A stretch of DNA of 35,636 nucleotides. Source: Anaeromyxobacter terrae. GTDB taxonomy: Bacteria > Myxococcota > Myxococcia > Myxococcales > Anaeromyxobacteraceae. Each line of letters begins with the position of its first letter. The first letter of the stretch is position 1. A program made the position numbers and the translations under genes. This document shows, in pieces, positions 3,458 to 8,564 of the stretch. The notes under the pieces were generated by a model. That model had not been told where the DNA came from. It was given only the letters and a program-made list of their open reading frames with translations, and made no database searches. The stretch spans positions 1 through 35,636 of the forward strand of contig NZ_JALCYY010000051.1 of assembly GCF_022690685.1 (NCBI RefSeq), in the 5' to 3' direction.

Positions 3458-3640
3458 CGGGGCTCCTCGGTGCTTCGGGTTCGAGGAGCGCTGGTGCAGC
3501 CGGCGTGCCCGCTGCTCGACCGCGCTCGGACGCGCGAATCCCCGGCGCGGTGGACGGCGGGACACGGCCGGCGTGTCCCGACGCCCACGGCCGCGGTTCC
3601 CCGGCCAGGGCGGCGCCGGCCCGGTCGCGATCGGCTATTC

Positions 3641-4411
3641 ATGGCGCCCTCCGTGTTCATCGCTCTCTCGAAGACCCTCGACCTCGCGGTCGCGCCCCTC
3701 ACCTGGACCCTCGCCCTGTTCCTCCTTGCGGCGCTCCTCCACCGCCGCCCGCGCGCGCCCTGGGCGCTCGGGCTCGCCGCCGCCGCCGTACTCGTCACGT
3801 TCTCCGTCGCGCCGGTGGCGAACGGGATCCAGCGCTTCGCGGAGTCGGGCGCGGAGCGCACCTTCCGGCCCGACGTCGTGTACGACGCGGCCATCGTGCT
3901 CTCGGGACAGGTGGACGCGGACGCGTCGCGCGCGAGCGGCGAGACCGAGTTCCAGGATGCGGTCGATCGCGTGCTCCGCGGGCTCGAGCTGTGGCGCGCG
4001 GGCCGCGTTCGTCACCTCGTCCTCTCCGGTGGCCCGGTGGAGGCGGCGCCGCGCGAGCCGTCCGAGGCGGAGCGGCTGCGGGACAAGCTCGTCGAGTGGG
4101 GCGTCCCCGCGGCGGCGATCGTGGTCGACCCGCGCAGCCGCAACACGCGCGAGAACGCCATCGAGTCGGCGCGACTCGCGGCGGCGCACGGGTTCCACTC
4201 GCTCCTGCTCGTCACGAGCGCGGCGCACGTGCCGCGCGCGCTCGGCTGCTTCCGGGCGGTGGGGCTCTCGCCGGACGTGCTGCCGGTCGATCGGCGCGCC
4301 GGGCGGGGCGGGAGCTGGCTGCCGCGGGCGAGCGTGCTCGCGCAGAGCACGAAGGCCCTGCACGAGCTCGCGGGGAGGGTGGTCTACAGGCTCGCCGGCT
4401 ACAGCCGCTGA
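3641..4411 (+). CDS. ElyC/YdcF-like DUF218 membrane protein
   Basis: A 256-residue inner-membrane protein with two N-terminal hydrophobic helices (roughly residues 5-33 and 40-60) followed by a DUF218 domain exposed to the periplasm. Family hallmarks are DAAIVLSGQVD, the RHLVLSGG strand-loop, a SRNTRENA segment and LLVTSAAHVPRAL. The layout resembles E. coli ElyC, linked to undecaprenyl-phosphate and envelope-precursor metabolism, and YdcF; the exact reaction is not established for the family. The ATG at 3641 begins the first helix; its Shine-Dalgarno sequence is poor, and an in-frame GTG at 3653 is possible. It stands alone between the divergent lipoprotein gene and the convergent hemerythrin gene. 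Confidence 0.82.
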   Translation: MAPSVFIALSKTLDLAVAPLTWTLALFLLAALLHRRPRAPWALGLAAAAVLVTFSVAPVANGIQRFAESGAERTFRPDVVYDAAIVLSGQVDADASRASGETEFQDAVDRVLRGLELWRAGRVRHLVLSGGPVEAAPREPSEAERLRDKLVEWGVPAAAIVVDPRSRNTRENAIESARLAAAHGFHSLLLVTSAAHVPRALGCFRAVGLSPDVLPVDRRAGRGGSWLPRASVLAQSTKALHELAGRVVYRLAGYSR

Positions 4412-4432: not shown

Positions 4433-4876
4433 CTACTGCACGCGATCGGCGGCGACGCGCGCGGTGAGCGCGGGCGCGGCGCGCGAGGGGCCGAGCGACG
4501 CGAGATCGCCGTGCGTGCGCGCGACGTGGATGTCGATCCAGCGCGGAAGCCAGGAGGTGAAGCGGACCTCCTGCAGCGCGACGAGGCCACGGCGCGTGAC
4601 GCTGTCCACGAGCTCGTCGAGATCGGAGAGGAAGCGCTCGTGCTCGTGCGCGTGGCGGGAGAGGCTCTTCGCGCCGGCATCCCGGAGCTTCGCCTCCTCC
4701 TCGATGAACTGGGCCTCGGCGGCGACCCGCAGCAGCTCGAGCCGCGTCACCGCCTCGTCCACGCGCCCGGCCCGGACGGTCTCTACGAGGCGGTTGGTGC
4801 GGTGCAGGAGATCGCGCTGCTTCGCGTCGATCGAATCAATCCCGACCGCGTGACCCGAGTGCCACTGAATCCACAT
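4433..4876 (-). CDS. Hemerythrin-fold protein with altered metal ligands
   Basis: A 147-residue cytosolic four-helix protein of the bacteriohemerythrin family. Order and spacing of the helices are standard: VGIDSIDAKQRDLLHRTNRL, AQFIEEEAKL, SLSRHAHEHERFL and WIDIHVARTHGDL. Compared with canonical di-iron hemerythrins, the two histidines that bind only the second iron are both Gln (KQRD, AQFIEE) and the bridging Asp five residues after the WxxxH histidine is His. The bridging Glu and the three first-iron histidines (HAHEH and WIDIH) are kept. I infer a mononuclear or otherwise altered site, so oxygen storage should not be assumed. The ATG at 4876 has an AGGAGG nine bases upstream; longer starts have none. 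Two adjacent inverted repeats sit in the leader. Confidence 0.85.
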   Translation of the reverse strand: MWIQWHSGHAVGIDSIDAKQRDLLHRTNRLVETVRAGRVDEAVTRLELLRVAAEAQFIEEEAKLRDAGAKSLSRHAHEHERFLSDLDELVDSVTRRGLVALQEVRFTSWLPRWIDIHVARTHGDLASLGPSRAAPALTARVAADRVQ

Positions 4877-4899
4877 GAGGCGCGCCTCCTGCCGTGGTG

Positions 4900-4940
4900 G
4901 GCTCCGGTGCGTTGGAGCCGTGTCGAGTGGGAACGACACG
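4900..4940 (-). promoter_or_regulatory. Two adjacent inverted repeats in the hemerythrin leader
   Basis: Directly upstream of the hemerythrin Shine-Dalgarno are two perfect inverted repeats, each with an 8-nt spacer and overlapping by one base. One is GGCTCC/GGAGCC (4900-4905 and 4914-4919), the other CGTGTCG/CGACACG (4919-4925 and 4934-4940). They could be a dimeric regulator's operator or a structured RNA leader. No known riboswitch consensus was recognised. Confidence 0.4.
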
Positions 4941-5205: not shown

Positions 5206-5988
5206 TCACCGCAGCGGGTGAAGGTGATCGACGACGCCGCGGCCGCGGCCGACGGCGTAGGAGCGCCTGAGCCCCTCCGTCAGGTAGGCCTTGGCGGCGC
5301 GCACCGCGTCGAGGAGCGCGTCGCCGAGCGCCAGGCGCGCGCAGATCGCGGCCGAGAGCGTGCAGCCCGTGCCGTGCGTGTTCTCGGTCTCGACGCGCGG
5401 AGCAGCGAGCTCGACGAGCGCCGCGCCGTCGAAGAACACGTCCACCGCGTCGCCCTCGAGCGCGCCGCCCTTCACGAGCACGGCTCGCGCGCCGAGCGCC
5501 GCGAGGTCCCGCGCGGCGGCGCGCATCGCGGGGACGTCGCGCACCGGGCGGCCGAGCAGCACGGCGGCCTCGTGCAGGTTCGGCGTGACGAGCGCCGCGT
5601 GCGGGAACAGGCGCTCGACGTAGGCGCGCTCGGCCGCCGCGTCGAGCAGCCGATCGCCGCTCTTCGCCACCATGACCGGATCCACGACGAGCGGCCCGAG
5701 CGGCAGCCGCGCCGCCGCCTCGGCGACCGCCGCGATGATCCCCGCGCTGGCGAGCATGCCGGTCTTCGTCGCGGCGACCGTCATGTCCGTCGCGACCGCC
5801 TCGATCTGCGCGACGACCATGGCGGGCTCGAGGGCCACCCAGGCCGTCACGCCGACGGAGTTCTGAGCGGTGATGGCGGTGAGCGCCGAGGTGCCGTGGA
5901 GGCGGTGGGCTGCGAACGTGCGGAGGTCCGCCTGCACGCCGGCGCCGCCGCCGGAGTCGGAGCCCGCGATGGTGAGGGCGACCTTCAT
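5206..5988 (-). CDS. thiD: Hydroxymethylpyrimidine / phosphomethylpyrimidine kinase
   Basis: A cytosolic ribokinase-family enzyme of thiamine biosynthesis that phosphorylates 4-amino-5-hydroxymethyl-2-methylpyrimidine and then its monophosphate. The 260-residue length is normal for stand-alone ThiD. Diagnostic segments are the N-terminal ALTIAGSDSGGGAGVQADL, TAITAQNS, ATKTGMLA, DPVMVAKSGDRLL, TPNLHEAAVL and the anion-hole/catalytic motif ENTHGTGCTLSAAI near residue 210. The start at 5988 begins the canonical MKVALTIAGSDS; upstream in-frame codons are not family-like. No other thi gene is in the window and the neighbours are unrelated, so it appears monocistronic. It diverges from the GH57 gene across about 110 bp. 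Confidence 0.95.
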   Translation of the reverse strand: MKVALTIAGSDSGGGAGVQADLRTFAAHRLHGTSALTAITAQNSVGVTAWVALEPAMVVAQIEAVATDMTVAATKTGMLASAGIIAAVAEAAARLPLGPLVVDPVMVAKSGDRLLDAAAERAYVERLFPHAALVTPNLHEAAVLLGRPVRDVPAMRAAARDLAALGARAVLVKGGALEGDAVDVFFDGAALVELAAPRVETENTHGTGCTLSAAICARLALGDALLDAVRAAKAYLTEGLRRSYAVGRGRGVVDHLHPLR

Positions 5989-6101
5989 GGCGCGGCAACA
6001 TAACCGAAAGGCCCCGGCCGGGCGGGTCCCGATGCCGGCGCCGCGCGCCGGGGCCCACCGGGGGGCGGGGCCCCGGGTCCGGGCGCGCCTAACATGCAGC
6101 G

Positions 6102-8564
6102 GTGACGCGCCGCCTCCTCTGCCTGCACGGCCACTTCTACCAGCCACCGCGCGAGAACCCCTGGATCGAGGCGATCGAGGTCCAGGACTCCGCGGAGCCG
6201 TTCCACGACTGGAACGAGCGGATCGCGGTGGAGTGCTACGCGCCGAACGGCGCGGCGCGCCTCAAGAACGCGGGAGACCGCATCGTCGACATCGTCAACA
6301 ACTACGTCCACCTGTCGTTCAACTTCGGGCCGACCTTGCTCGCGTGGCTCGAGCGGGAGCGGCCGGACGTGCACGCGCGCGTCGTCGAGGCGGACCAGAA
6401 GAGCGCGGACCGGCGCGGTCACGGGAACGCGCTCGCGCAGGGCTACAACCACGCGATCCTCCCGCTCGCGTCGGCGCGCGACCGGCGCACGCAGATCCGC
6501 TGGGGCATCGCCGACTTCCGCCGCCGCTTCGGCCGCCCGCCGGAGGGCTTCTGGCTGCCGGAGACCGCCGCGGACACCCCGACGCTCGAGGCGCTCGCGG
6601 AGGAGGGGATCCGCTACACCGTGCTCTCGCCCTACCAGGCGCGCCGGGTGCGGCCGCCCGGCGGCGAGTGGCTGGACGCGACCGACGCGCGGTTCGATCC
6701 CACCCGGCCTTACCGCGTGCGCGCGGGCCAGCGCGAGCTCGCCGTGTTCTTCTACGACGGGCACATCGCCCGCGATCTCGCCTTCGGCGACGCGCTCTCG
6801 TCGCCCGACGCGCTCCTCCGCCGCCTCGAGGGCGGGTTCGACCCGGCCCGCGAGCACGACGAGATCCTCACCATCGCGCTCGACGGCGAGACGCTCGGTC
6901 ACCACAAGAAGGGCGGCGACGAGGTGCTCGCGGCGGCGCTGCGCCTCCTCGGGAAGCGCGACGATCTCGAGCTCGTGAACCTGGGTCAGGCGCTCGATCG
7001 GATCGAGCCGGAGTGGGAGGCGGAGATCGCGGAGGGCTCGTCCTGGAGCTGCGCGCACGGGATCGAGCGCTGGCGCTCCGACTGCGGCTGCAGCGTGGGG
7101 GCGGAGCCCGGCTGGAACCAGGCGTGGCGCGCGCCCCTGCTCGCCGCGCTGGAGACGCTGCGCGGCGCGCTCGGGGACGTGTTCGAGCGCGAGGCGGCGG
7201 GCCTGCTCTCCGATCCGTGGGGCGCCCGGGATCGGTACGTGGAGGTCGTGCTCGACCCCGACCGACGCGACGCGGACGAGGTCCTGCGCCGCGAGGCGGG
7301 GCGGCCGCTCGGGCCGGACGAGACGGTGAAGGCGCTCCGGCTCCTCGAGATGCAGCGCCAGTCGCTGCTCATGTTCACGAGCTGCGGCTGGTTCTTCGCG
7401 GAGCTCTCCGGGCTCGAGACCGTCCAGGTCATGAAGTACGCCGCGCGCGCCATCCAGCTCGCACGGGACGCGTCGGGGGTGGACCTCGAGCCCGGGTTCG
7501 TCGAGGCGCTCGCGCGCGCGCCCTCCAACGTGCCGGCGCTCGGGGACGGGCGGCACGTGTACGAGAAGCTGGTCCGCCCGAGCGTGGCGTCGCTCGAGGG
7601 CGTGGGCGCGCATCTGGCCGTCGCGAGCTCCGTCCGCGACATGCCGGAGGAGGGGCGCCTGTTCTGCTTCCGGTACCGGCTGAACGGGGGGCGCCGGGCG
7701 CAGTCGGGGCCCGCGACGCTCGCGACGGGACGGATGCACCTCGAGAGCGTCATCACGCGCGAGTCCCTCGACGCGCTCTACTGCGTCGTCCACTTCGGCG
7801 CGGCGGACTTCCGCTGCGGGCTCGTGGCGTACCCGGGCGCGGAGGCGCACGCCGAGATCGAGCGGGTCCTGTTCGCCCGGCTCGAGCGGATCTCCTTCGC
7901 CCGCCTGCTGCGCGAGGTCGATCGCGCGTTCCCCGGCCGCGACTACACCCTGCGCGACCTGTTCCTCGACGAGCGCCGCCACGTCGCGGACGTGCTGCTC
8001 GAGGGGGCGATGCGGCGGTACGAGGACGACTACCTGCGGGTGTTCGAGGACAACCGGCGCCTCATGGAGTTCCTGCGGGAGATCGACTCGCCGGTCCCGA
8101 CGCCGCTCCGGGTCGCCGCCGACGTGACGCTCACCCGCCGCATCCTCGACGTCACCGGCCGCGCGCGCACGGGAGCGGTGGCCATCGACGAGGGGATCGC
8201 CGAGCTCCTCGCGACCGTCCAGCTCGCCAGCGCGCTGGGGGCGCACTTCGACATCGTGAAGGTTCGCCGCGAGGTCGAGGCGCTCGTGCGGTCGCGCGTC
8301 GAGACGCTCATCGCGGGTCACGGCGGCCCGGCGCGCGCGGACGAGCTCATCGCGATCCTCGAGCTCGCCCGGCGCGTCGGCCTGTGGCTCGACCTCTGGG
8401 AGCCCCAGAACCGCTTCTGGGAGTGGGCGGGCGCGCGGGGGATCACGCTCGACCGGGAGCGGACCGCCGGGCTCGCCCGGCGGCTCTGGTTCGACGAGGC
8501 GACGCTCCTCCTCCGCGCCGGGTACGCCCCGCGCCGGACCGAGGCGCCGCGCCCGCTCCGCTGA
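6102..8564 (+). CDS. Family 57 glycoside hydrolase with DUF3536 C-terminal region
   Basis: An 820-residue cytosolic protein (no signal peptide) of the GH57/COG1449 group, whose members act on alpha-glucans as amylases, branching enzymes or glucanotransferases. The N-terminal barrel has the typical HGHFYQPPRENPW opening (residues 9-21), GHGNALAQGYNHAI, EGFWLPETA and LTIALDGETLGHHKKGG. In the last, Glu263 occupies the position of the GH57 nucleophile. The remaining part is the alpha-helical DUF3536 region, ending near the WLDLWEPQNRFWEW segment. GTG at 6102 starts directly before the motif; an ATG at 6094 is in another frame and stops at once. Exact substrate is unknown; glycogen-type storage polymer is likely. 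Confidence 0.9.
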   Translation: MTRRLLCLHGHFYQPPRENPWIEAIEVQDSAEPFHDWNERIAVECYAPNGAARLKNAGDRIVDIVNNYVHLSFNFGPTLLAWLERERPDVHARVVEADQKSADRRGHGNALAQGYNHAILPLASARDRRTQIRWGIADFRRRFGRPPEGFWLPETAADTPTLEALAEEGIRYTVLSPYQARRVRPPGGEWLDATDARFDPTRPYRVRAGQRELAVFFYDGHIARDLAFGDALSSPDALLRRLEGGFDPAREHDEILTIALDGETLGHHKKGGDEVLAAALRLLGKRDDLELVNLGQALDRIEPEWEAEIAEGSSWSCAHGIERWRSDCGCSVGAEPGWNQAWRAPLLAALETLRGALGDVFEREAAGLLSDPWGARDRYVEVVLDPDRRDADEVLRREAGRPLGPDETVKALRLLEMQRQSLLMFTSCGWFFAELSGLETVQVMKYAARAIQLARDASGVDLEPGFVEALARAPSNVPALGDGRHVYEKLVRPSVASLEGVGAHLAVASSVRDMPEEGRLFCFRYRLNGGRRAQSGPATLATGRMHLESVITRESLDALYCVVHFGAADFRCGLVAYPGAEAHAEIERVLFARLERISFARLLREVDRAFPGRDYTLRDLFLDERRHVADVLLEGAMRRYEDDYLRVFEDNRRLMEFLREIDSPVPTPLRVAADVTLTRRILDVTGRARTGAVAIDEGIAELLATVQLASALGAHFDIVKVRREVEALVRSRVETLIAGHGGPARADELIAILELARRVGLWLDLWEPQNRFWEWAGARGITLDRERTAGLARRLWFDEATLLLRAGYAPRRTEAPRPLR

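Follow-up and report, generated by a model that had tools for sequence, protein, structure and literature searches.

A hemerythrin-fold paralogue of Anaeromyxobacter that keeps the ligands of one iron site and lacks the histidines of the other

Analysis of a 35,636-nucleotide stretch of Anaeromyxobacter terrae DNA (hereafter the window) revealed a gene for a hemerythrin-like protein, in which the losses of metal ligands are confined to one of the two iron sites. On balance, we moderately favor the reading that it is a paralogue specialized for one metal at the position of the first iron (Fe1), devoid of the O2-binding second iron (Fe2) and maintained by selection. Rather than decaying, the gene is probably being maintained in a one-metal form.

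Gene and genomic context

The open reading frame at 4433-4876 shows GC contents of 0.76/0.46/0.92 at the three codon positions, as expected for a coding frame in a GC-rich genome, and encodes a single-domain hemerythrin paralogue, presumably located in the cytosol (Table 1). A GTG start at 4939, corresponding to a product of 168 aa, was rejected, as the ATG at 4876 is served by a Shine-Dalgarno motif and protein similarity starts there. A further neighbor of the gene encodes a beta-eliminating lyase of the tryptophanase type. Operon or partner logic applied to thiD, the DUF218 gene, the lyase, and the GH57/DUF3536 gene as neighbors points to no function, and no conserved partner gene was found in the neighborhoods of the six related genes described below. 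A role as sensor or metal carrier had been considered in the original prediction; since the protein consists of a single domain and a conserved partner gene is missing, the neighborhood gives no backing to the sensor role.

Table 1. Location of the hemerythrin gene, its ligand codons, and neighboring features in the window
Feature	Position	Strand	Remark
DUF218 (YdcF-like) gene	3638..4411	+	neighbor converging on the hemerythrin gene
Site-2-less hemerythrin gene (P0001)	4433..4876	-	single domain, 147 aa plus stop
H122, at bridging Asp (D106) position	4511..4513	-	His restricted to the window gene and its orthologues in G005 and G007
H117, Fe1 histidine (H101)	4526..4528	-	invariant in the clade
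H79, Fe1 histidine (H77)	4640..4642	-	invariant in the clade
H75, Fe1 histidine (H73)	4652..4654	-	invariant in the clade
E60, bridging Glu position	4697..4699	-	invariant in the clade and 79 other domains
Q56, at second Fe2 histidine (H54) position	4709..4711	-	Q in 5/6 clade members, L in G022
Q20, at first Fe2 histidine (H25) position	4817..4819	-	Q in 4/6 clade members, R in G006 and G003
Shine-Dalgarno AGGAGG	4885..4890	-	serves the ATG at 4876
thiD (phosphomethylpyrimidine kinase) gene	5206..6006	-	upstream neighbor of the hemerythrin gene
GH57/DUF3536 gene	6102-8564		

Family membership and predicted fold

Comparison with protein families yielded matches of the window protein to the NCBIfam bacteriohemerythrin model NF033749 (9.3e-13, 48.4 bits) and to TIGR02481 (1.6e-12, 47.6 bits), lying under the respective cut-offs of 84 and 51.75 bits, as well as a weak match to Pfam Hemerythrin PF01814 (0.0053, 17.7 bits, under the gathering score of 25.3). 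No RIC or ScdA_N match was detected in Pfam and NCBIfam, and membership in the RIC/YtfE group is not indicated. An AlphaFold2 model calculated with no template and five sequences in the alignment reached a mean pLDDT of 80.8 and predicts an up-down four-helix bundle (helices 14-35, 39-66, 72-96, and 106-126), its tail beyond residue 130 being of low confidence; a two-sequence run gave a pLDDT of 61.2 and a poor helix D. The PDB structures closest to the model are DcrH-Hr and McHr (VIA Z ~18, 128-129 residues, rmsd 1.9-2.2). Matches to these two range from Z 17.8 to 18.3, apart from deoxy-DcrH-Hr at 16.9. Hemerythrins occupy each of the first 14 VIA rows (Z 15.5-18.3), with the best non-hemerythrin bundle at Z 14.1. 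Judged by its predicted structure, the window protein is a member of the hemerythrin fold and HHE superfamily.

Apart from the window gene, the host genome (5.65 Mb) has 24 hemerythrin matches in Pfam, 22 of them above cut-off. The Pfam search finding these loci (L001-L024) missed the window gene entirely. Two of the loci, L009 (G000:C2:126413-129748) and L010 (G000:C77:97427-100762), share a hemerythrin-domain stretch of 3,336 bp with 100% identity, which points either to duplication in the recent past or to a duplicate created in assembly.

Metal ligands of the window protein

Ligand positions were assigned by alignment to McHr and DcrH, using a correspondence of window to canonical residues that we take to be Q20/H25, Q56/H54, E60/E58, H75/H73, H79/H77, H117/H101, and H122/D106. 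The resulting ligand motif reads Q-QxxxE-HxxxH-HxxxxH. According to PMC9388753, Fe1 of hemerythrin is held by three His and Fe2 by two His, with Glu and Asp bridging the metals, and O2 binds to Fe2. Translation and alignment agree with the original prediction that both Fe2 histidines are Gln (Q20 and Q56) and that the Fe1 histidines (H75, H79, and H117, within the motifs HAHEH and WIDIH) are kept along with the bridging Glu60. The expectation that the usual reversible O2 binding is unlikely stands as well, because O2, as described in PMC9388753, binds to the very iron whose histidines are missing. Two further claims hold for a narrow range of proteins. The change of the bridging Asp to His is true of the window protein but confined to three close orthologues, and a site of up to four His and one Glu would likewise apply to the window protein and two close orthologues, whereas the clade-wide core is of the 3-His/1-Glu type. 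This common core follows from the deeper members carrying Asp at position 122 (G022) or having it displaced by a one-residue deletion (G006 and G003).

The window protein contains four extra histidines (H6, H9, H25, and H77), which count in favor of a still dinuclear protein, where a weaker second metal would be held by these residues or by Gln20/Gln56, carboxylates, and water. Gln can indeed coordinate a metal via its oxygen. However, Leu and Arg, neither being a common ligand, also occur at the Fe2 positions in sister members. The clade shows no conservation of H6, H9, and H25, and at residue 77 its members carry H, H, H, H, Q, and S. We therefore regard a dinuclear site as improbable.

Origin of the clade

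A protein search across 193 related genomes turned up a close orthologue each in G005 (97%) and G007 (90%) and, at greater distance, homologues in G022, G006, and G003. Together with the window gene these form a clade of six members from Anaeromyxobacter, to which five belong, and one related genus. Written in the order of the two Fe2 histidines, Glu, the three Fe1 histidines, and Asp, the signature is QQEHHHH in the window protein, G005, and G007, QLEHHHD in G022, and RQEHHHD in G006 and G003. In the latter two, a one-residue deletion in helix D between H117 and Asp places the Asp one residue closer than normal. The standard seven ligands occur in none of the six aligned proteins; both Fe2 histidines are missing and the three His and Glu are present in every one of them. 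Hence the proposal that ligand loss is concentrated at one metal position was borne out, the losses being common to all orthologues found, with an intact Fe1 set.

For the tree and signature analysis, 88 distinct hemerythrin domains were gathered and 85 kept, a sample skewed toward relatives of the query. Absence of both Fe2 histidines was seen in 6/6 clade members vs 0/79 other hemerythrin domains. Of these 79, 69 are fully canonical (HHEHHHD), the others showing replacement of H73 by Q (three; L082, L093, and L050), of H54 by N (two; L022 and L091), or of H25 by L (one; L075), a gap at H25 (three), or a cut-short domain (one). Without the seven ligand columns, the six-member clade received support of 97/99, and of 98/97 on an independent MAFFT alignment, values that rest on about 120 columns and include G022 as a long branch; 98% of 200 bootstrap trees required a single change of state. 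The clade sits among canonical paralogues, the nearest canonical rows including L029, L059, and L068 (89/83, not starred; the root was not inferred). As far as sequence comparison can tell, the window gene descends from within the bacteriohemerythrins, and the loss of the site would have a single origin within canonical paralogues of the Anaeromyxobacter family. Independent convergent losses in three lineages are disfavored, since the clade holds on two alignments without ligand columns.

The L029/L057 locus (G006:C1:5001584-5003022) encodes three tandem hemerythrin domains, one of which, L029:1156-1899, belongs to the canonical domains most closely related to the clade. Tandem hemerythrin pairs are present in G001, G002, G004, and G008 as well.

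Profile searches differed in their power to delimit the clade. A profile built from the trio of close orthologues failed to separate it, scoring G022 at 76.8 bits, the canonical L029 at 71.5, and G006 at 70.9, with G003 (63.2 bits) ranking under four canonical domains, which counts against a single origin. A six-member profile run over 195 phylum genomes placed only the six above 190 bits, leaving a gap between 196 and 112 bits to the next match, which is partly circular because all six members built the profile. TIGR02481 gave 68 matches on nine genus genomes, 62 of them above cut-off; the six failures comprise the five clade members of the genus and one contig-edge match in the 66%-complete G008. 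Strict peptide patterns searched over genome contigs matched only in Anaeromyxobacter soli (97% identity), a search of viral contigs for clade members gave no match, and a plasmid search, as part of a limited search outside the phylum, returned one remote Azospirillum match.

Distribution and selective constraint

The gene order lyase, DUF218, hemerythrin, thiD, GH57 is unbroken in G005 and G007. In G003 the hemerythrin gene lies ~1.4 kb from the GH57 gene, and in G006 ~1.4 kb from the lyase gene with GH57 within ~12 kb, so that the neighborhood is wholly or partly kept in 4/5 other clade members. The gene of G022 has different neighbors. Adjoining it there are genes for a VIT1-family and a PilZ protein (L079 3899-5485). 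G001, G002, and G004 possess the thiD-GH57 pair, and no hemerythrin match was found at E 1e-3 in the stretches examined there. Across the genus, the gene is present in 5/9 genomes examined, one of the nine being 66% complete. It is absent from 3/7 near-complete genomes other than the host and is thus dispensable; this, along with the helix-D deletion and higher dN/dS of G006 and G003, weighs against the one-metal reading.

This patchy presence could be taken as a sign that the gene has lost its function and is in early decay, as could the raised dN/dS of 0.34 for G006 vs G003. Against this stand the intact frame in 6/6 members, the concentration of changes at one metal position, and the degree of constraint. 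Calculated by NG86, dN/dS among the three close orthologues amounts to 0.08, 0.22, and 0.18, matching a canonical paralogue in the same genomes (0.08, 0.17, and 0.20). As the constraint equals that of the canonical paralogue, the site-2-less gene is not decaying, and this alternative is largely refuted and retains a very small probability. In agreement with the original prediction, random decay is disfavored by purifying selection (dN/dS about 0.08-0.22) in combination with the shared losses.

Among the columns at least 95% conserved in other domains, leaving M1 aside, L49, E60, H75, H79, W113, and H117 are retained in 6/6 clade members, H20, H56, and M64 are lost in 6/6, and W5, G12, D17, and D122 are missing from some members. 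In terms of the canonical pattern, H20, H56, Q19, Y52, M64, and Y69 are lost in all six. Given 28/126 invariant columns, the chance of the four named ligands all being invariant if free to vary is about 0.002, a rough guide from simple drawing that ignores shared ancestry. Within the aligned sequences, Glu60 and the three Fe1 His are invariant, and lability is seen at the position of the bridging Asp, a residue that also belongs to the Fe2 site.

These columns bear on a further explanation, according to which the protein is an apo pseudo-hemerythrin carrying no metal in vivo and acting as a helical scaffold or partner of canonical subunits, its His and Glu residues forming a hydrogen-bonded core. 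The 24 other Pfam hemerythrin matches in the host genome would allow such mixed assemblies. Loss of ligands may yield an apo protein, because the single changes H11A and H110A in MXAN_7204 of Myxococcus xanthus abolished the diiron band at 330-370 nm, as reported in PMC12753109, and the H2 hemerythrin-like motif of Arabidopsis BTSL2 is without a diiron centre (PMC12022348). On the other hand, 28/126 columns, among them E60, H75, H79, and H117, are invariant in the clade, including lineages that share only 36-38% identity with the window protein. In a metal-free protein, buried histidines should drift, as has happened at positions 20, 56, and 122. We consider the apo state rather unlikely, and the one-metal paralogue remains our preferred reading.

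Proposed one-metal site

In the preferred one-metal reading, a single metal, most likely Fe(II/III), would occupy the old Fe1 position with three His and one Glu as ligands, and His122 may supply a fourth nitrogen ligand in the window protein and two close orthologues. The former oxo-bridge position would then face the emptied Fe2 cavity lined by Gln20 and Gln56, where water or a small ligand could enter. The emptied site appears to be filled in various ways, by Gln/Gln with the Asp-to-His change, by Arg/Gln, or by Gln/Leu, and the missing second cation might be partly offset by the Asp-to-His change of the trio and, in G006 and G003, by the Arg at position 20. With Fe2 missing, no diiron O2 chemistry would be expected, and the protein could serve in one-electron redox, respond to NO, superoxide, or peroxide, or act as a metal buffer. 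More tentatively, and as a possibility we hold with limited confidence, it may be a natural mononuclear non-heme metalloprotein on the hemerythrin fold, which arose when a diiron carrier had its O2-binding iron deleted, first with a 3-His/1-Glu and then, in the Anaeromyxobacter soli-like lineage, with a 4-His/1-Glu site. Instead of carrying O2, it would perform one-electron redox or NO/superoxide chemistry. The proposed ligand set resembles that of the 4-His/1-Glu iron in type II photosynthetic reaction centres.

The clade offers a clean natural test, as the O2-binding iron site is removed and the other site is under normal constraint, with sister members differing in the filling of the emptied position. 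Metal content would tell whether the hemerythrin fold can work on one metal in nature.

Comparison with known systems

Ligand loss and Gln replacement are shared with the "altered" hemerythrins of two earlier surveys. The 2008 survey counted 58/327 bacterial hemerythrins as altered, with Gln as the commonest replacement (24/71) and 45/71 alterations in helix C, affecting Fe1 ligands (counts as given in PMC2556348). Here, in contrast, both helix A and helix B carry alterations and helix C has none, a comparison made by survey totals in which individual proteins may overlap. The 2016 survey, as far as presented in PMC4919030, comprised 106 single-domain variants, took in Anaeromyxobacter genomes including strain Fw109-5, and asked whether altered variants have lost their function, gained a new one, or bind iron by an alternative mechanism. 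Among the matches listed in the literature searched, no natural one-iron hemerythrin was found.

The single-domain bacteriohemerythrin McHr (PDB 4XPX) resembles the window protein in size and four-helix fold (Z 18.0, 128 residues), with aligned Fe1 histidines and bridging Glu, but the window protein lacks both Fe2 histidines and has His in place of the bridging Asp. The Desulfovibrio chemoreceptor domain DcrH-Hr (PDB 2AVK) shares the fold (Z 18.3, 129 residues, 21% identity); DcrH is described as carrying five His with Glu/Asp and being fused to a receptor (PMC9388753), whereas the window protein is a free single domain without the Fe2 site. A natural non-canonical motif, H-HxxxE-HxE-HxxxxD, is reported for the hemerythrin-like domain of P1B-5 ATPases (PMC9388753), which differs in keeping both Fe2 histidines and in being part of a membrane transporter. 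The crystal structure of the E159L variant of YtfE/RIC contains mononuclear iron according to PMC8117158, so that a hemerythrin-like bundle can hold one iron. This variant differs in being engineered and in binding the iron by another ligand set of H84, H204, and E208 (PMC8117158), and YtfE itself, as described in PMC12753109, by another motif and an N-terminal ScdA_N domain.
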